Assembly: GCA_902801255.1 (NCBI GenBank)
Contig: CADCHO010000009.1
Span: forward strand, 1-62,845
Reading direction: 5' to 3'
DNA: 62,845 bases
DNA from: an uncultured Eubacteriales bacterium
GTDB lineage: Bacteria; Bacillota; Clostridia; Peptostreptococcales; Anaerovoracaceae
The stretch's first letter is position 1. Each line of letters opens with the position of its first letter. The notes under the pieces are model-generated. The model was not told where the DNA came from, made no database searches, and saw only the letters and a list, made by a program, of their open reading frames with translations. Both the position numbers and the translations under genes were made by a program. Shown here piece by piece: positions 53,664 to 61,424 of the stretch.

Positions 53664-53804
53664 TCTTGGATGTATAGTATAATCAATACATGAGCTGCAA
53701 AAACTAGAAATCTCATTAAAACATCTACATAGCAGTACGAAAAAGAAAATAAAACAAGGGAATAATCACTGAGTTTTACACTCAAGTGTGTTCTGGAGGA
53801 TGTC

Positions 53805-54293
53805 ATGAATATTTACATTGAAGTAAGAAACAATTTGGGACTATCTAGAGAAAAAGCTAGCGAACTACTTGAAACAATTTCCCCTGAAAAATTGGAGAGA
53901 ATTGAGAATGAGAAACAGTTGCCAAATCCTGATGATGTCATGATTATGGCTGACAAATACTCTGAACCAAACATTCGCAATTTCTACTGTGCTAATCAGT
54001 GTCCTATGGGGCAACACTATGTACCAAGGATTATGTTTAATGATCTTGAGAAGACAGTGTTAAAGTTATTGGCCTCGCTAAACTCAATGCATGGGAAACA
54101 GGAAAAACTGATAGAAATAGCAGAAGATGGCAAAATATCAGACGAAGAGCTGGTGGATTTTATCAACATACAAAAGACTTTGGAGAGAGTTTCTTTGGCT
54201 GTAGATGCCTTGGAACTGTGGACTGACAAAATGATATCTAGCGGTAAAATAAATATGGATCGTTATAACGAGCTTATCAATGCACATAAGTAG
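53805..54293 (+). CDS. XRE-like helix-turn-helix protein
   Basis: 162 residues. N-terminal helix-turn-helix similar to XRE regulators but short (RNNLGLSREKASELLETISP, LERIENEKQLPNPDDVMIMA). Then FYCANQCPMG with two cysteines, and a C-terminal helical domain (KQEKLIEIAEDGKISDEELV). GGAGGATGTC before ATG 53805. The gene is much more A+T-rich than those to the left and marks the start of the apparently acquired region. Probably a regulator; target unknown. Confidence 0.75.
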   Translation: MNIYIEVRNNLGLSREKASELLETISPEKLERIENEKQLPNPDDVMIMADKYSEPNIRNFYCANQCPMGQHYVPRIMFNDLEKTVLKLLASLNSMHGKQEKLIEIAEDGKISDEELVDFINIQKTLERVSLAVDALELWTDKMISSGKINMDRYNELINAHK

Positions 54294-54510
54294 ATATATG
54301 CTTTTTATGAAAACTGGGCGCTGAAATATGCGCCTTATTTTTTTGCAAATAATGATAAAAATGATCCCAGTATTCTTCAATTCATGTCATGGTGAGATGA
54401 CATTACTGCTAATAAAATATAGGTACAAACAAGAGATAAGAAGCATTCGGAGGATAAAGAAAAATATTCAACTCACCTTTCACACAATCATATAAAAAGG
54501 AGGTTCAAAA

Positions 54511-54738
54511 ATGCCAAAGAAACTGTACACAACAAGAGAATGGGATGGATATGGAAAACAGAACTACTATCACAATGAGTATAGGCAAGAAGGAGATATC
54601 ATTGAAAAAGTAAAATGCCATCGTCAAAAATTCTTTGATGGGCATGAAAACGAGTGGTGCCATGATGAATACGTTGTAGATTCGTGGCATAAAGATGATC
54701 CAAGCATGCCGGATTGGTTGAAAAAGTATATCGATTAG
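54511..54738 (+). CDS. Small hypothetical protein
   Basis: 75 residues, charged and rich in Tyr, Trp, His and Asp (KKLYTTREWDGYGKQNYYHN, DSWHKDDPSMPDWLKKYI). No family recognised. AAAAAGGAGGTTCAAAAATG is an excellent start context, which supports translation. It lies alone in A+T-rich sequence between the XRE gene and the NERD cassette. Confidence 0.65.
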   Translation: MPKKLYTTREWDGYGKQNYYHNEYRQEGDIIEKVKCHRQKFFDGHENEWCHDEYVVDSWHKDDPSMPDWLKKYID

Positions 54739-55092
54739 TGCATCCTTCAGCACTATAGAAATGAATTAGGGAATTGTGAAATAAGGAAGAAAAACTAACA
54801 ATTTAGCATTAGGCCGGGTTTACCCGGCTTAATAATTGATTGTATTGTGAAAATTTTGCTTTTACAGAAAATAATTGGGAATACGCAACATAATTAACAC
54901 GGACACATAATTGAATAAATGCACATATTCAACCATACTAGGGCATTTGCAAAAAGTGCTCTGTTTTTTTGCACACAGTGTCATATATAGGTAGGTGATT
55001 CTGTAATCGTTGTCATGGTGTGTGTATGTACTCTTTTCTACAATATAGTCAAGAAACAAGAAAGCTTATATAGCAGAAAGGAGTTGGTACCA
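54739..55092. other. A+T-rich intergenic region
   Basis: About 350 bp. GCCGGGT-TT-ACCCGGC (54812-54827) is a strong hairpin with a poor T tract, perhaps a terminator. TTGAATA (54911-54917) pairs with TATTCAA (54926-54932). No ORF with a ribosome binding site. Confidence 0.55.
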
Positions 55093-55296
55093 ATGAATGT
55101 AAAACAAAGGGTGCTAGCAGCCAGGTTAGCCGAAAAGGGTAGAAAGAATAGAGAATATTTAAAAGAACTAGGAATTGATATTTTTTACGAAGATCACACA
55201 GATATTAAAGGAGACAGGAACGATGAAAAAGAATGCAATTACAGAAATCTTGAGACAGTCAGATGTTCTCATGTCAAAGGAAACTACATTTACTGA
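55093..55296 (+). CDS. Small basic hypothetical protein overlapping the NERD gene
   Basis: 67 residues starting MNVKQRVLAARLAEKGRKNR and continuing EYLKELGIDIFYE. AAAGGAG lies 9 nt before ATG 55093. The last 24 codons overlap the next gene in another frame. The N-terminal part looks like a real small helical protein, while the C-terminal part is probably shaped by the overlapping gene. May be a leader that couples translation to the NERD protein. Unknown function. Confidence 0.5.
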   Translation: MNVKQRVLAARLAEKGRKNREYLKELGIDIFYEDHTDIKGDRNDEKECNYRNLETVRCSHVKGNYIY

Positions 55297-56326
55297 ATAT
55301 ACAGATGATCTGCTTAAGCTCCAGGATCTGATTGTTCCAATAGTTATGGGGAAAGATTATATTCCGGGAATGAGGGTAGAAGAAGCAATATTCAGGATGG
55401 AAAGTGAGGCTAGAGAAAGAGGCCTTGGTGGAGATCCAACGGTAAGACGAGGAATCAACGCTTTAAAAACCGTGAACAAAGAACTGCATATATGTATGGC
55501 AGGCAGAAAAGGAGAAAACCTAGTAGCAAGAACTCTGGAATATGTTAACAGACCAGAAGCGAAAGTGTATAGAAATGTTTATCTTACCGATGGGAAAGAA
55601 GAAACAGAATTGGATGCAGTAGTGCTTACTGATTCCGGAGTAATAATCCTCGAAATCAAGAAGTCAAAAGACGACTTAACTATTACCGAAGAAGGTAGAT
55701 TGGTACATTCAGGGGATGAATGCTATGAGAAAAGATCACTTGGCACAAAAATGGGGATTAAGCGTAAACTGCTGAAGGAAAGACTTGATCTTGAATGTGC
55801 AAGAAGAGGTTTTACAACACCAGTTACAGTAGAGAGCTATATCGTCTTTGTAACTCCAAAGGGAGTCAGAATCAATGTCGATGACAAGTATCACTGTGAG
55901 AAGTGGTGCTTTAGAACAAGCTTGAACCACAAAATAGCTTCGTATACATCGAACTCTTACTACAGGGAAGAACAGTTTGAAGCCTTAGAGGATATCATGG
56001 AAACTATAGAACAGAACAGAAAAAGTTTCACCAGCGACATTGATTATGAAGAAATCAGAGAAAACTTTGCGGAGGCGCTGGAAGTGCTGACATCTGGAAA
56101 AGGAGAAAGCAAAAAGAGCTTGAAAGAAAAGATTGCTGAAACAGCTAAGGAATTCAACAACAGTGAAGCTGGAAAGTACCTGAAAAAAGCTGCACCGTGG
56201 ATCATTGCGGAAGCGATCGGTCCTGCAGCAGGAATGATTGGGAAGGTAGCACCAAAGGCAGCTCCATATGCGGCAAGAGTCGCAAGTAGCATAAAGGTTG
56301 CAATGACACGTGTATCTATTGCATAG
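55223..56326 (+). CDS. NERD-domain (nuclease-related) protein
   Basis: 367 residues. The N-terminal 95 residues are helical. A NERD domain (PD-(D/E)xK-like fold) spans about residues 95-215: GRKGENLVARTLEYV, ETELDAVVLTDSGVIILEIK (acidic Asp and ExK active-site-type residues) and a late VTVESYIVFVTPKG strand. The C terminus (about 320-367) is Ala/Gly-rich and hydrophobic (APWIIAEAIGPAAGMIGKVA), which could touch membranes. Start ATG 55223 with AAAGGAG 9 nt upstream. First large gene of the candidate system. Confidence 0.82.
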   Translation: MKKNAITEILRQSDVLMSKETTFTEYTDDLLKLQDLIVPIVMGKDYIPGMRVEEAIFRMESEARERGLGGDPTVRRGINALKTVNKELHICMAGRKGENLVARTLEYVNRPEAKVYRNVYLTDGKEETELDAVVLTDSGVIILEIKKSKDDLTITEEGRLVHSGDECYEKRSLGTKMGIKRKLLKERLDLECARRGFTTPVTVESYIVFVTPKGVRINVDDKYHCEKWCFRTSLNHKIASYTSNSYYREEQFEALEDIMETIEQNRKSFTSDIDYEEIRENFAEALEVLTSGKGESKKSLKEKIAETAKEFNNSEAGKYLKKAAPWIIAEAIGPAAGMIGKVAPKAAPYAARVASSIKVAMTRVSIA

Positions 56327-56403
56327 GCGATGAATAAACAGCCAGACACTGATCTAGAAAAGTGAGATATAAAAAGCAAATGAAGAAAAAATGGAGGTAC
56401 GAG

Positions 56404-57567
56404 ATGGATAATAGAGTTTTTAAGATAGAAGACATGGCCAGTAAGTGTTGCAAAGAAATCAGAGAAAGAATAGAAGGCCTTACAGAGCTGAACATCATAG
56501 TTATGGGAAAGTCAGGTGTTGGCAAAGGCACATTGATAAATAGTTTCTTTAGGGATAAACCGGCAGAGACGGGAATTGGCCGACCTGTCACAAGGGATAT
56601 TAAAGAAATAAGAAGAAAAGGATATCCACTGCACATTTACGACACACCGGGCCTGGAACTTGGAGCAGAGCAGCAGGCACGAGTAAAGAATAAGATTATG
56701 GAAATAATCGAGGACGGCATCGCTTCCAATGATATCAATAAAGCGATTCACTGCATATGGTACTGCATCAACGTTGCAGGAAATAGATTTGAAGATGCTG
56801 AGTTAAACTGGCTTAGAGAGCTCACCGATGCTGCATCAAGGACACATGTTCCGGTAATAGTGGTACTGACTCAGGGATATCAAAGAACGAAAGCAATTGA
56901 TATGAAGCTTATGCTGGAACATGAGAATCTGAATGTTGCAAGTGTCGTACCGGTATTGGCACAGGATCTGGATATTGAAGGAGAATTTACAATACCAGCA
57001 TATGGGTTAGATACACTTATAAATGTAATGACTAGTGCTTTACCTGATGAGCTTCAGAACACATTACAGAATCTTCAGATTGCAGATATGGATTTAAAAA
57101 GAAGGCACGCCAGAAAGATAGTTGCGGCAAGTGTAACGATAGCCTTTGGAGAAGGTTTCACTCCCGTGCCTTTCTCAGACGCAGCCTTGCTAGTTCCTAC
57201 TCAGATCTCAATGATAGCTGGAATTACGAGTGTATACGGTGTCGATATAAATACAGGTTCATTGGTTGCAATAATCTCCTCGACAATTGGAGGTGCAGGA
57301 ACAACGATCCTAGGAAAAACACTAGTCGCCAATATTATAAAAATGATTCCGGGAGTCGGTTCAGTGGCGGGTGGCATGATAAGTGGTGGTATTGCAGCAA
57401 CTCTTACTGCGGCTCTAGGGGAAGCTTACATTCGAGTAATGGATATGGTTTGCAGAGAAAATGTTGATCTCTCATTTGTCTCATCAGATGAAGGCATGGA
57501 GACGATAAAGAAAATATTTGAGGGCGAGCTTAGGAACCCTGCGAATATCTCGTTGTCTTCCATCTAG
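56404..57567 (+). CDS. GTPase with C-terminal DUF697-like hydrophobic domain
   Basis: 387 residues. G-domain: G1 VMGKSGVGKGTLINSFF (about residues 37-53), G2 Thr in GRPVTRDI, G3 YDTPGLELG (about 83-91). G4 reads VLTQGYQRTK where TKxD/NKxD is expected, so guanine recognition is non-canonical. From about residue 245 the protein resembles DUF697: AFGEGFTPVPFSDAALLVPT, ISMIAGITSVYGVD, then Gly-rich hydrophobic segments. ATG 56404 has GGAGG 5 nt upstream. It follows the NERD gene by 77 nt. Confidence 0.85.
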   Translation: MDNRVFKIEDMASKCCKEIRERIEGLTELNIIVMGKSGVGKGTLINSFFRDKPAETGIGRPVTRDIKEIRRKGYPLHIYDTPGLELGAEQQARVKNKIMEIIEDGIASNDINKAIHCIWYCINVAGNRFEDAELNWLRELTDAASRTHVPVIVVLTQGYQRTKAIDMKLMLEHENLNVASVVPVLAQDLDIEGEFTIPAYGLDTLINVMTSALPDELQNTLQNLQIADMDLKRRHARKIVAASVTIAFGEGFTPVPFSDAALLVPTQISMIAGITSVYGVDINTGSLVAIISSTIGGAGTTILGKTLVANIIKMIPGVGSVAGGMISGGIAATLTAALGEAYIRVMDMVCRENVDLSFVSSDEGMETIKKIFEGELRNPANISLSSI

Positions 57568-57624
57568 TGAATGCTCCAATGCCAAAAGCCATAAAATGAA
57601 TCGTCATGAACAATACTACCCTGA

Positions 57625-57630
57625 TATAAT
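57625..57630 (+). promoter_or_regulatory. Possible extended -10 promoter
   Basis: TGATATAAT upstream of the 57667 gene has a TGN extension and a perfect TATAAT, but no clear -35. Confidence 0.4.
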
Positions 57631-57666
57631 TGTACTAATAAAGATCACGATAAAAGGAGAACAGCT

Positions 57667-58833
57667 ATGGGTAATGAAATAATCAAAGCGGCTATGGCAG
57701 AATCGCTTGCAAATATCGAATTATACCCTGAACTCATAGATAACAATGTATCTTTGTCAAAGTTCGATAAAGTACCAGTAACTCAGATGGCATCGATGGG
57801 CTCGGCTTTCGAGCCCATTGCAAAAGCCTTTCAACAGTATATTGGGAGTTCAGGAGAAGAAATAACTCAACTGTGTAGGGTTACAATACCCAAAGGGACT
57901 CATCTTGCATACTCTGCTGAAAAAGGTGCCAGTATTGGAGCGGTGGTTACAGACGGAATTGGTGTAACTGGACAAGCAGCAATTAATCCGGTCAATCCAA
58001 TGGTGTGCAATCCGGCAACAATATGTGTAGCCATAGCACTAGCAGGAATAGATAAAAAACTTGATGGAATCCAGAAAATTCAGACCGAGATCCTTGAAAC
58101 AATGGAACAGGATAAACGCTCTGAGCTAAACGGTGATTTGAATTTCCTGAATGAAGTTATTGCAAACTACAAGCATAACTGGAACAACGATGCTTATAAG
58201 AGTAGCACTGCAACAACGGTCCAGGGAATCAGGCGTGAGGCAGAACAGAAGATAGATAATTATAGGGCAACTATTCATAGAAAAATGAGAGATAAATCTC
58301 TGCTTGAAACTGAGTCAGATGTTAAGAAGAAAGTAAGATCTCTACTTACTTCGTTCAGAGACTATGAACTTGCAAGATATGTTCACGCTTTTTCTTTCTT
58401 CGCGGAAACACTTTTACAGGAAAATTATAATGAAGCATACATTAACAATATCATTAGCAAGATAGAAAATTATTCCTATGATTACAGAGCCTTGTTTACT
58501 AAATGCTACGATGAGATAGAGCATAAAGCGGGGAAAGCTGTTGAAGCACAATTGCTCGGAGCGGTTGCGTCTACCGGAAAGGCATTAAGCAAAGCAGCCG
58601 GTAATACTCCACTAATAGGAAAAACACCTATTAAAGACGTGTTTGGAGATGCTGCACATAGTGTTAAAAAAGCGAAGAGCAGAACTGTAAATCATGCGAT
58701 TAGAAGAATGAGAGATAATAGGCAGGACATTGTAGCACCATTCATATCCGGCCTTACCACAATCAGACGCATATACAATGAAGAAAACGTTCTCTATTTT
58801 GATAAGAATGATGTATATATGCTAAAAGGGTAG
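57667..58833 (+). CDS. Unknown 388-residue protein of the NERD/GTPase cassette
   Basis: 388 residues, no family recognised. Features: SFDKVPVTQMASMGSAFEPI-like N terminus, a Gly-rich hydrophobic segment (NPATICVAIALAGIDKKLDG, about residues 117-136) followed by long helical/coiled-coil stretches (about 136-300, many Lys/Glu), and a basic C-terminal tail (KKAKSRTVNHAIRRMRDNRQ). It could be a membrane-associated or effector partner of the GTPase. AAAAGGAGAACAGCT precedes the ATG. Composition matches its A+T-rich neighbours. Confidence 0.75.
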   Translation: MGNEIIKAAMAESLANIELYPELIDNNVSLSKFDKVPVTQMASMGSAFEPIAKAFQQYIGSSGEEITQLCRVTIPKGTHLAYSAEKGASIGAVVTDGIGVTGQAAINPVNPMVCNPATICVAIALAGIDKKLDGIQKIQTEILETMEQDKRSELNGDLNFLNEVIANYKHNWNNDAYKSSTATTVQGIRREAEQKIDNYRATIHRKMRDKSLLETESDVKKKVRSLLTSFRDYELARYVHAFSFFAETLLQENYNEAYINNIISKIENYSYDYRALFTKCYDEIEHKAGKAVEAQLLGAVASTGKALSKAAGNTPLIGKTPIKDVFGDAAHSVKKAKSRTVNHAIRRMRDNRQDIVAPFISGLTTIRRIYNEENVLYFDKNDVYMLKG

Positions 58834-58846
58834 GGAGATATTCATA

Positions 58847-59428
58847 ATGAATATAACGCTTGAGAAATATCTGATTATAGTCAATGTGGCAGGTTTCATA
58901 TTATTTGGGATCAACACATTGCTCTATACGTTCACTGAGGAGGGACAAATAGATAAGGTCCTCACTTTAGTTGCTATAGCTGGAGGCTCCCTAGGCATAG
59001 TGATATCAATATTACTTTTTAGCCGGAAAGCGGTGAAAGAGAACATGATGTCAAGAGTGTTTGTCTTCAGTGTTCTTGCCATTCAGATCATAGTCGTGCT
59101 ATGGATAAAAGGGATTCATGGGGACAAAATACAATTGGCATTCTGGTCATTCTTTGCAGCGCATAAAGGTATTATTTATTACCTTATAGCAATCAATGTA
59201 CTGACATTTGCTATATATGCTTGGGACAAGCTGGCCGCCATAGAAGGAAGATCCAGGATAAGGATTGTAACACTTTTATTACTCGCTGGAGCTGGGGGCT
59301 CAATAGGTGCTTTGATAGCAATGTATACTTTGAGACATAAGATTCAAAAGGATTATTTCACAGTTGGAGTTCCATTGATTATTCTTGCTCAAGTATTTCT
59401 ACTGTTCTTTGCTATGAATGCCGCTTAA
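58847..59428 (+). CDS. DUF1294-type membrane protein, apparently duplicated
   Basis: 193 residues, about six helices. The C-terminal half is a full DUF1294 domain: YYLIAINVLTFAIYAWDKLA, RIRIVTLLLLAGAGGSIGAL and MYTLRHKIQKDYF. The N-terminal half repeats the plan in worn form: YLIIVNVAGFILFGINTLLY and LTLVAIAGGSLGIVISILLF, without the DK and RHK motifs. So it looks like a tandem duplication with one degenerate copy. Starts 13 nt after the previous gene. Role of DUF1294 is unknown. Confidence 0.8.
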   Translation: MNITLEKYLIIVNVAGFILFGINTLLYTFTEEGQIDKVLTLVAIAGGSLGIVISILLFSRKAVKENMMSRVFVFSVLAIQIIVVLWIKGIHGDKIQLAFWSFFAAHKGIIYYLIAINVLTFAIYAWDKLAAIEGRSRIRIVTLLLLAGAGGSIGALIAMYTLRHKIQKDYFTVGVPLIILAQVFLLFFAMNAA

Positions 59429-59439
59429 GGAGGCGGACG

Positions 59440-60759
59440 ATGATGAATGAAGAATACTATTGCCCAAATTGCAATGCTGTTCTAAACGATCAGGACGGAT
59501 TTGATCCTGATTTAGGGGCATGGACATGCACTGAATGCGGAGAAACTCTGTATGGGGATGATGTTGAAAACACAATGGATCAATTTGGTGGCGTTGTCTG
59601 GTACTGTGATGAGTGTAATGCCATTTTAAATACTCAGAGCGGTTTTAATGATTCGTGTGGTACATGGTACTGCACGAAGTGCGGCCATGAAAATTCCATT
59701 TCAGAGGATGAAATTTACGAGTCAGCGGAGGAATATGAAAATAGGAATAAACATAGATGTCCAGAATGTGGAGACATTTTAGAGGACCAGTATTCATTCT
59801 ATGAGTATGAAGACACTCACACATGCACAAACTGTGATACTGAACTATTCCATGAGGATGATGAATATAAAGTTTTATACAGATGTCCTAACTGTGACGA
59901 GATCCTTAACCAACAAATTGGATTCTACGATTATTATTCTGAATGGGAGTGTGAAAACTGCGGCAAAACATTAGTCAAAGAATATGATGGATATCATATT
60001 GAAAATGAAGATGAAGACGACAATGAAGATTACAATTATGAACCTTTGGATAAAACTTCATATACGGTACAAAGTAGAAAAGAAGAGCAAAGAAGATTAC
60101 TGGAAGCAGAGGAAATAGTAAAAAAAGAGAAAGAGAAAGAAAGAAGAGAGAAAAGGAGAAGATTCTATAAAAAACATTGGAAAGGTCTTCTGCTATTGAT
60201 TTCTGTTCTTTGTGTAGGATGCTTTGGCGGATATAAGTACTATCAGTATCAGAGAAGTATTACGGTAGGGATATCATCGGAGGAACTGGCAGGCCAAAAC
60301 TATGAGGAAGTAATTGCGATATTAGAAAAGGCAGGCTTTACAAAAGTTTCGTCAAAACCAAAATATGATATTGGTATTAATGAAGTGGACATAGAGGGAA
60401 CGGTTGAAAGTGTTAGTATAGATGGGAATAAATCGTTTAATGCAAGCAAAAGGTATCAATTCGATGCTGATGTAATAGTTTTGTATCATAAAATTAAAGA
60501 TGTAAATGTTCCGCTCTCGGCTAAGGATGCTAAAAAAATGCAGTATGAGGCTCTTGCTAAGCAACTGAGTGATGCAGGGTTTGTTAATATAACTTTTGAG
60601 CCAGAATACGATTTGATAAAGGGATGGCTAAAAAAGAAAGGTAAAGTAAAGGAAATTACAATTAATGGAGATTCGTCGTTCAAGGCAAACACATCATATA
60701 GACCTGATGTTGAGGTTGTTATCAAATATCATGAATTAAGAAAAAATAAAACTGACTGA
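59440..60759 (+). CDS. Four zinc ribbons + membrane helix + two PASTA-like repeats
   Basis: 439 residues. Four N-terminal CxxC...CxxC ribbons of about 30 residues each (about 8-35, 56-83, 106-133, 148-175) share the core C-x2-C-x(6-9)-GF/Y...W-x-C-x2-CG. Then an acidic linker and a Lys/Glu/Arg-rich coil (about 205-245), a membrane helix (GLLLLISVLCVGCFGG, about 248-266) and two C-terminal PASTA-like repeats (NYEEVIAILEKAGFTKVSS and QYEALAKQLSDAGFVNITFE). Topology predicts ribbons inside and PASTA outside. AAGGAGG precedes the ATG. Last gene of the cassette. Confidence 0.82.
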   Translation: MMNEEYYCPNCNAVLNDQDGFDPDLGAWTCTECGETLYGDDVENTMDQFGGVVWYCDECNAILNTQSGFNDSCGTWYCTKCGHENSISEDEIYESAEEYENRNKHRCPECGDILEDQYSFYEYEDTHTCTNCDTELFHEDDEYKVLYRCPNCDEILNQQIGFYDYYSEWECENCGKTLVKEYDGYHIENEDEDDNEDYNYEPLDKTSYTVQSRKEEQRRLLEAEEIVKKEKEKERREKRRRFYKKHWKGLLLLISVLCVGCFGGYKYYQYQRSITVGISSEELAGQNYEEVIAILEKAGFTKVSSKPKYDIGINEVDIEGTVESVSIDGNKSFNASKRYQFDADVIVLYHKIKDVNVPLSAKDAKKMQYEALAKQLSDAGFVNITFEPEYDLIKGWLKKKGKVKEITINGDSSFKANTSYRPDVEVVIKYHELRKNKTD

Positions 60760-60803
60760 GAGAGTCTCTTTTTACCTATGAAATATGTGTGGAGTAACAA
60801 TAA

Positions 60804-60929
60804 TTAGATACTATTATAGGTGCTTTCGCATTTCCATCTGATTTCATTAATTTACTTGAACCTATAAATGGTGATGAAATAATTGAGGACGATAATTTTT
60901 GGGTTGATGAACTGAAAAATATCGACTAA
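60804..60929 (+). pseudogene. C-terminal gene remnant
   Basis: An open stretch without start codon or RBS reads GAFAFPSDFINLLEPINGDE and ends in WVDELKNID then TAA 60927-60929. The composition looks like true coding sequence (acidic, with a plausible C terminus), about 41 codons. Probably the tail of a gene lost by deletion after the zinc-ribbon gene. Family unknown. Confidence 0.45.
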
Positions 60930-61181
60930 ATTCTGGATGATTGAAATAAGGCAAAATCGGGAAATCTCGGTTTTTAATAAATGGATTATGTGGAAGAGCA
61001 AGAAAAAACTGACATATAATTAATAAAGTAAAACTGTATAAATTGGCACAATAGCGCCTTTTGGCGCTTTTTTAGTGGGTGCTTTTCGGTACACATGCGC
61101 CTGTAAAATATAAATGTCAGAAACAAGCAAAGGTGTTCTGAAAGATGCATAGATGAGAAGAACTAGGAAAGGCGGACAAGA
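60930..61181. other. Intergenic region after the cassette
   Basis: About 250 bp, A+T-rich, containing a terminator (61053-61074). The repeat-free sequence shows no ORF before 61182. Confidence 0.6.
61053..61074 (+). terminator. Rho-independent terminator
   Basis: AGCGCC-TTTT-GGCGCT followed by TTTTT. It closes the A+T-rich cassette on the right. Confidence 0.85.
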
Positions 61182-61424
61182 ATGAGTAATCAAATAGCAG
61201 TGAAGGGCAGATCCAAGGATGATTATCGGAAGCTTGTAGCCTTTCTCAAAGAAAGAGGCTACAAATTGAGTGAATCTTTGGAATCATTGAAAGACTATGA
61301 TCAGATAAAAGCAGTCATGATTGACCATGATACAAAGTCTGCGCATATACCATCAACAATGATAATGGCTTGTTATGTTACTTGTAGGAAAAAGGTTTTT
61401 AGTGTAGAAGAGTATTGTCAATAG
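61182..61424 (+). CDS. Small hypothetical protein
   Basis: 80 residues: KGRSKDDYRKLVAFLKERGY, HIPSTMIMACYVTCRKKVFS. No family recognised, soluble, slightly basic. GGAAAGGCGG lies 7 nt before the ATG. It precedes the ADP-ribosylglycohydrolase by 33 nt and could be co-transcribed. Confidence 0.6.
   Translation: MSNQIAVKGRSKDDYRKLVAFLKERGYKLSESLESLKDYDQIKAVMIDHDTKSAHIPSTMIMACYVTCRKKVFSVEEYCQ

Follow-up and report, generated by a model that had tools for sequence, protein, structure and literature searches.

We consider it rather probable that a block of genes near the right end of the window is a composite island of accessory genes, stacked from modules that move separately, most likely each with its own function against phages or other mobile elements; that function is what we infer from the genomic settings described below. 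The window is a stretch of 62,845 nucleotides from an uncultured Eubacteriales bacterium of the family Anaerovoracaceae (contig CADCHO010000009.1). The modules are a NERD protein, possibly together with a small open reading frame (ORF) called o67, a DUF697 GTPase, a helical protein, and a membrane pair, which we name A, B, C, and D-E, respectively, and they lie beside an XRE-type gene at a hypervariable chromosomal site. The block is an insert, and its modules recur separately in other genomes. Their contexts point to defence: relatives of A, B, and D-E were found in a slot in which known defence genes also occur, and relatives of C were found beside defence genes.

The features of the region are as follows.

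53805–54293, + strand: XRE-type regulator left of the insert, after DUF6591 and common to some congeners at the same site
54435–61049, no strand: inserted block, approximate extent from blastn to congener loci; the ends are alignment stops, not exact junctions
54511–54738, + strand: S75, an orphan 75-aa ORF with one homologue among the fetched loci (L077 in genome G230, 3e-26)
55093–55296, + strand: o67, a 67-aa ORF that runs into the start of A; small ORFs like it lie beside XRE genes elsewhere (phmmer)
55223–56326, + strand: A, NERD protein, candidate PD-(D/E)XK nuclease (Pfam NERD 2.2e-10)
56404–57567, + strand: B, septin/AIG1-like G domain and DUF697 (Pfam; septin profile matches in PDB); alternative GTG start at 56362
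57667–58833, + strand: C, mostly helical, of an unnamed family that is often near defence genes elsewhere (16/296 family genomes; model pLDDT 65)
58847–59428, + strand: D, six predicted transmembrane segments, with DUF1294 in the second half (Pfam 3.6e-23; transmembrane prediction)
59440–60759, + strand: E, four zinc-ribbon units, one transmembrane segment, and two PASTA-type repeats (Pfam; transmembrane scan; Foldseek)
61050–61182, + strand: terminator (61053–61068) and shortened gene remnant at the right edge, DNA common to congeners

An insert at a variable chromosomal site

The five large ORFs have the same orientation and occupy 55223–60759 with spacings of 77, 99, 13, and 11 bp (ORF listing), as had been described in an earlier reading made from the letters alone (hereafter the sequence-only reading). 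That reading let the cassette begin at 55093, which is the start of the o67 ORF and not that of the NERD gene (55223). The raised A+T content that it reported was also observed, as the G+C content of the block was 0.392 vs. a mean of 0.489 (standard deviation 0.018, minimum 0.448) in 5,667-bp windows over 1–53.5 kb. Since the A+T-rich zone begins at about 53.6 kb, left of the insert, and takes in the XRE gene, which also occurs in some congeners, low G+C content alone is no marker of the insert.

The boundaries were read from blastn alignments. The match to congener flank DNA stopped at 54434 and restarted at 61050, at a truncated gene and a terminator, which places an insert of approximately 6.6 kb at about 54,435–61,049. 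On the left, positions 53795–54434 matched the DNA of loci L265/L273 at 71%. On the right, the remnant reads 'MSETSKGVLKDA*' in frame 0; its DNA was 79–89% identical over 77–135 bp to four congener loci, three of which have a gene starting MSE...GVLKE at this position. A gene remnant and a terminator on the right had also been described in the sequence-only reading. A repeat search over 53.5–61.46 kb returned only short imperfect pairs as boundary repeats of the insert.

The flanks themselves are widespread in the genus. Left-flank DNA (MerR-DUF6591) was matched in 22 of 47 genus genomes, the window's own included and some of them partially, and the right-flank protein, an ADP-ribosylglycohydrolase, in 27 of 47, again including its own; six of these 27 besides the window were near full length (83–89%). 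An XRE orthologue follows DUF6591 in L265/L273 (G246), L272 (G238), and L274, and in one genome (G306, locus L257) both flanks lie on one contig with approximately 16 kb of other genes between them. The 15 congener stretches retrieved with these flanks held no relative of A–E at E 1e-3. When 20 listed congeners were searched genome-wide, a C relative was present elsewhere in two (G196 and G288) and a B relative in one (G283), and there were no relatives of A or E. Thus, it is well supported that the block is an acquired or variable insert in the chromosome of this genus (Mogibacterium relatives, Anaerovoracaceae). The blastn junctions and the 15 congener stretches without A–E relatives bear out the acquisition proposed earlier, and they speak against the region being core sequence in all close relatives, the case that had been named as its refutation.

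The gene content at the site differed in each congener, and by eye many of the genes were of lipoprotein, NUDIX, ADP-ribosylglycohydrolase, or other non-defence kinds. It is conceivable on these grounds, and given the B-type GTPases L091 and L094 in the same neighbourhood, that unrelated accessory or envelope-stress genes without any defence role were gathered here by chance. We find this explanation rather unlikely, as it hardly accounts for relatives of A, B, and D-E in one slot with defence genes, plus C near BREX, McrBC, and Abi genes at several loci.

L257, L265, L272–L274, L091, and L096 share a recurring gene pair (approximately 325–344 and 286–306 aa, by eye), which belongs to the variable region of the chromosome in this genus and is also present in two further genomes.

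Separate recurrence of the modules

All five families were searched in one draw of 296 Anaerovoracaceae genomes, the window included. C was matched in 16 of these genomes. A was matched in seven, namely the window, G032 (48%), G190 (25%), and four weak cases covering part of the NERD region. B was matched in 54, of which 20 besides the window reached E 1.2e-7 or better and many others were short G-domain matches. E was matched in 14, mostly partially. D was matched in 112, of which the window and G172 alone have it at full length; every other listed match begins at residue 75 or beyond. Relatives of A, B, D, and E were absent from the surroundings of 14 C loci, and the neighbourhoods of 20 loci with A, B, or E relatives showed a single adjacency, that of D and E in L098 (G172). 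Since only D and E adjoin each other, once, since the C loci lack the other genes, and since A and B are scattered, the results argue for modules rather than for one system. At one locus (L085, the same as L310, of Mogibacterium kristiansenii), an XRE gene, a small ORF, and a NERD gene occur in the order seen in the window. No plasmid matched A, D, or E by tblastn.

In the sequence-only reading, the five genes had been joined in a single multi-component system linking a nuclease-like protein, a GTP switch, and a membrane sensor. In its fuller form, the PASTA/zinc-ribbon protein E would sense an envelope event, the GTPase would switch, and the NERD protein would act. Co-orientation, the 11–13 bp gaps in C-D-E, and a thematic likeness to the GTPase/zinc-ribbon/membrane conflict systems described in PMC7159879 fit such a machine, and none of the terminator-like hairpins on the + strand (54316, 54808, 54939, and 61053) lies within A–E. 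However, D and E are the only genes that recur side by side, the A/B gap is 77 bp, and the 99-bp B/C gap contains an extended -10-like site (57601–57630), a weak signal, as promoter-like sites overall numbered 21 vs. 25.5 ± 5.0 in shuffled sequences. The number of hairpins on both strands (n = 6 vs. 3.7 ± 1.8 in shuffles) was likewise not clearly beyond chance, and an Rfam scan of 52–62.8 kb gave no match. We therefore regard one shared system as very unlikely. Of the recurrence that had been proposed as support for it, the D-E adjacency (L098) was found; A, B, and C were scattered without conserved adjacency, the pattern that had been named as counting against it. The suggested link with defence survives in the defence-type settings of the separate families, not in a system common to all of them.

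The XRE gene was surveyed at the best 80 of 166 confirmed XRE loci, taken from named records. A was present at one of the 80 (L310), C at two (L276, which is G196, and L317), B and E at none, and the sole D match was a 95-aa DUF1294-only protein (L328); the XRE gene was consequently rejected as a specific controller of the cassette. Small ORFs similar to o67 were found at nine of the 80 loci (phmmer, E 0.01 or better), seven of them downstream on the same strand and two divergent (L332 and L343). L310 adds a further o67-like ORF through a motif that matched no other locus. In L022/L276, the XRE-o67 pair is followed by a VirB6 fragment.

Defence-type settings

In conjugative elements, the interval from VirD4 to VirB6 was found to be occupied by relatives of three modules: a NERD protein (L086, 25%), a B-type GTPase (L093, 27%), and a D-E pair (L098). 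Of 247 family genomes searched for VirB6, 42 gave a match. The interval was measured at 33 loci, 27 of them with both genes; it came to ≤531 bp in 11 of these 27 elements and >1 kb in 16, so the cargo of the slot is dispensable. When six filled intervals (ten proteins) besides L086, L093, and L098 were compared with PADLOC, defence families were found in five: AbiLi (L174), AbiLi/AriA-like (L189), AbiEi/AbiEii (L191), a type VI retron with helix-turn-helix and reverse transcriptase genes (L169), and a PDC-S25/ThsA-like protein of SIR2 type (L182). The L167 slot gave no PADLOC match. At L085, the locus of the second good NERD relative, a 40-residue VirD4 remnant lies approximately 475 bp upstream of the XRE gene (tblastn, 67.5%, E 1e-14). 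The genome of the window has the VirB6 gene in four copies on separate contigs (C55, C56, C64, and C67 of G000; L192, L177, L176, and L193, respectively) and so probably contains several such elements.

Because the slot belongs to conjugative elements, the modules might instead serve conjugation or exclusion, as donor or recipient envelope functions of integrative and conjugative elements (ICEs), with the island as leftover ICE cargo. The slot position of the A, B, and D-E relatives, the six predicted transmembrane segments of D and the one of E, and an E-type PASTA protein elsewhere in one such element (L182:1371–2222, 1.9e-07, downstream of VirB6 and outside the slot) are consistent with this. 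We nevertheless consider it unlikely, as the tested slots hold AbiE, retron, and other non-conjugation genes, as the short intervals mark the cargo as dispensable, and as all 27 measured intervals were free of C relatives. In addition, one VirD4 and one VirB6 used as tblastn queries gave nothing below E 2.6 in the window, whose contig ends at 62,845. An intact ICE was rejected as an identity for the block, since no type IV secretion system trace was found within the window by tblastn.

The setting of C was examined at 14 family loci, the short weak matches of G108 and G245 being excluded. A model-named defence gene lay ≤5 kb from C at at least 7 of the 14: BrxL/PglZ (PADLOC) and a type IV enzyme (mREase_IV) at L019, AbiD and a DUF262-type protein at L020, a DUF262-type protein at L022, AbiU at L028, a type IV enzyme (mREase_IV) at L026, where a NUDIX part is also in frame with C, and McrBC (Pfam) at L030 and L031. 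DUF262-type is our own reading of proteins that PADLOC labels HEC-05 and HEC-06/Orf5, and the mREase_IV label at L026 rests on a family scan (two members) and 60% identity to the L019 protein. At 1e-15, PADLOC matched neither the AAA proteins of L030/L031 nor the second gene of L024; L030 and L031 were counted through Pfam McrBC, and a mad8/HerA match at L024 was left out of the count. The C loci were partly limited by contig ends, and 123 neighbours were scanned, with 25 of the 140 matched families listed and selected neighbours named singly.

Further C relatives came from outside this set. C is adjoined by AAA_15 and DUF3226 genes in L317, and L362 has a ResIII-type protein. By tblastn, C had a single partial match among plasmids and another among phages; on a Mesobacillus plasmid, brxL and pglZ lie near a partial match (29% over 39% of C). 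A C gene also came from a provirus in IMG/VR (L352, which is one and the same element as L021), and an integrase-like gene (by eye) lies near C in L360. At the class level, the C profile matched 7 of 167 genomes, its own included, in seven genera of seven families; among the six other matches, those in G460 and G473 were weak and that in G361 was partial.

Two observations on neighbouring genes may be added. In L026:8929–10557, a NUDIX domain (PDC-S07 match) and a C-family protein share one open frame, through either a fusion or a lost stop codon, beside a gene like those of type IV enzymes. A similar-looking gene pair (approximately 1,010 and 520 aa, by eye) occurs with the B-type GTPase at L094:751–8469 and with C at L024:2053–10070, and the larger L024 protein is the one with the mad8/HerA-like match.

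Several findings weigh against the reading of the block as a stack of defence modules. No window gene fits a PADLOC family well. The six slots compared with PADLOC had been picked as promising, the other seven filled intervals (L170, L176, L179, L183, L187, L192, and L193) were left out of that comparison, and by eye several of these seven look lipoprotein- or transferase-like; the slot is thus not reserved for defence. The A, B, and D-E types each rest on one slot locus, and the B-type one (L093) came from the B search and was absent among the VirB6-search loci, whereas L086 and L098 were found by both searches. Several slot copies are from one genome, some near-identical, and the 27 elements are thus not independent. 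The E relative in G172 is without zinc ribbons. PADLOC families were also matched among 123 control ORFs taken from XRE loci, 53 families vs. the 140 of the C neighbours; the control ORFs were not position-matched and two of the 123 rows were the XRE gene itself, and since the output counts families and not positive proteins, it gives no enrichment figure for C. Finally, the B-type GTPases L094 (G283, 26%) and L091 (G243, 32%) lie near MerR and DUF6591 genes as in the window, so that B may belong to the variable chromosomal region, as a resident, rather than with the other genes of the insert. The picked slot sample and these GTPases reduce our confidence in the composite defence island.

If that reading is nevertheless correct, it is possible, and we put it forward tentatively, that C is an undescribed single-gene anti-phage family, patchy over several Clostridia families and carried by a provirus, and that D-E is an undescribed two-gene defence module of a DUF1294 membrane protein and a transmembrane PASTA sensor. 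These would add two candidate defence families that have no PADLOC or Pfam system label. The VirD4-VirB6 interval would then be a named slot of conjugative elements with recognised defence genes among its cargo, from which more such systems could be read off. The results would also caution that a compact, co-oriented, A+T-rich cassette may consist of stacked independent modules instead of one machine.

The proteins and their relation to known systems

The family assignments of the sequence-only reading (NERD, GTPase/DUF697, DUF1294, and zinc ribbon/PASTA) agreed with Pfam, but the membrane link that it gave to B through DUF697 was not seen in a simple hydropathy scan, which detected no transmembrane-like segment in A, B, or C. 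The NERD domain of A scored 2.2e-10 (41.5 bits vs. a cut-off of 22.1), and D131, E144, and K146 (E144-x-K146), which we take to be the PD-(D/E)XK active site, were invariant in three aligned sequences. By its domain and its acidic and lysine residues A thus belongs, as judged from sequence, to the NERD family; it may cut foreign DNA. Its C-terminal end is hydrophobic by eye, with no segment over the transmembrane threshold. B is a P-loop GTPase followed by DUF697 (MMR_HSR1 1.6e-10 and DUF697 6.9e-10), with G35, G38, G40, K41, T56, D80, and G83 invariant in a 10-member alignment and profile matches to septins in PDB. It would act as a GTP switch, attached to the membrane if its DUF697 behaves as a membrane-associated domain.

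The C protein of the window had no match in Pfam, PHROG, or PADLOC (best PADLOC 0.025). Its model (predicted local distance difference test, pLDDT, 65) is mostly helical, and the sole strong fold match was an uncharacterised Siphoviridae protein (Foldseek, E 4.3e-13). Three names were set aside: pore-forming toxin, as the ClyA/AhlB/MakA Foldseek matches all had E > 0.001 and TM < 0.3 on this model; PDC-S07, as that match falls on the in-frame NUDIX part in L026; and PHROG names, as single members matched single PHROGs, the best non-NUDIX one being a portal protein (1.7e-06, 1 of 14 members). C would act alone.

D contains DUF1294 (3.6e-23) and six transmembrane-like segments in the hydropathy scan. 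In E, Pfam detected zf-Sec23_Sec24 (3.4e-07) and PASTA (4.6e-05; 23.7 bits, cut-off 23.2), and four tandem CxxC...CxxC units can be read before the transmembrane segment at 247–265. The E model had a pLDDT of 61 overall and 80–90 across most of its C-terminal part, which matched the PASTA domains of PknB (Foldseek, E 1.1e-06). D-E might link a PASTA sensor on the outside with a membrane protein. The S75 homologue in L077 (G230; L077:1571–1990) adjoins a stretch that matches the zinc-ribbon DNA of E (window 59598–59675).

A comparison of the window genes with PADLOC gave no good and no system-level match, in accord with the earlier statement that no named system has this set of genes; the best match was to the LeoBC G domain, D reached 0.064, and E had none. 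B is like LeoBC and LeoA in its G domain (2.1e-11), but the match covers only positions 51–175 of 601 in the LeoBC profile and 37–156 of 559 in that of LeoA. No literature linking DUF697 or Tn1549 with phage defence was found in a search mostly without subscription literature, so that its absence means little; for NERD domains in an anti-phage role, one paper turned up.

Like the PknB-type PASTA kinases, E has a transmembrane segment followed by PASTA repeats (fold match). Unlike them, it has four zinc-ribbon units and no kinase domain detectable in Pfam or NCBIfam, and NCBIfam PknB_PASTA_kin was matched only over 286–489 of 563 with 25.8 bits vs. a cut-off of 450. A shares a NERD domain of the PD-(D/E)XK clan with the defence proteins PglW, MAD6, and MkoA, and differs from them in showing no kinase or helicase part in Pfam; its matches to MkoA (6.8e-04) and MAD6 (0.048) were weak. 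A NERD domain is described in PglW (PMC9009780) and a NERD gene in a phage-association cluster (PMC12409351).

The closest published theme is that of the DO-GTPase/GAP1 conflict systems, in which, according to PMC7159879, a GTPase shares its neighbourhood with zinc ribbons, membrane segments, and wall-binding domains, the same kinds of components as in the block. In contrast to these systems, the GTPase B is DUF697/septin-like and without a zinc ribbon. Among the Pfam matches of the window genes, neither GAP1 nor DO-GTPase names occurred; Pfam holds models of both.

Defence islands and ICE hotspots, for example those of SXT-type ICEs, carry anti-phage genes. The block differs from ICE hotspots in that it lies in the chromosome without conjugation genes and that no gene was placed in a named system by the searches made, and it resembles them and defence islands in its exchangeable, probably defence-type cargo and in the stacking of several unrelated modules.

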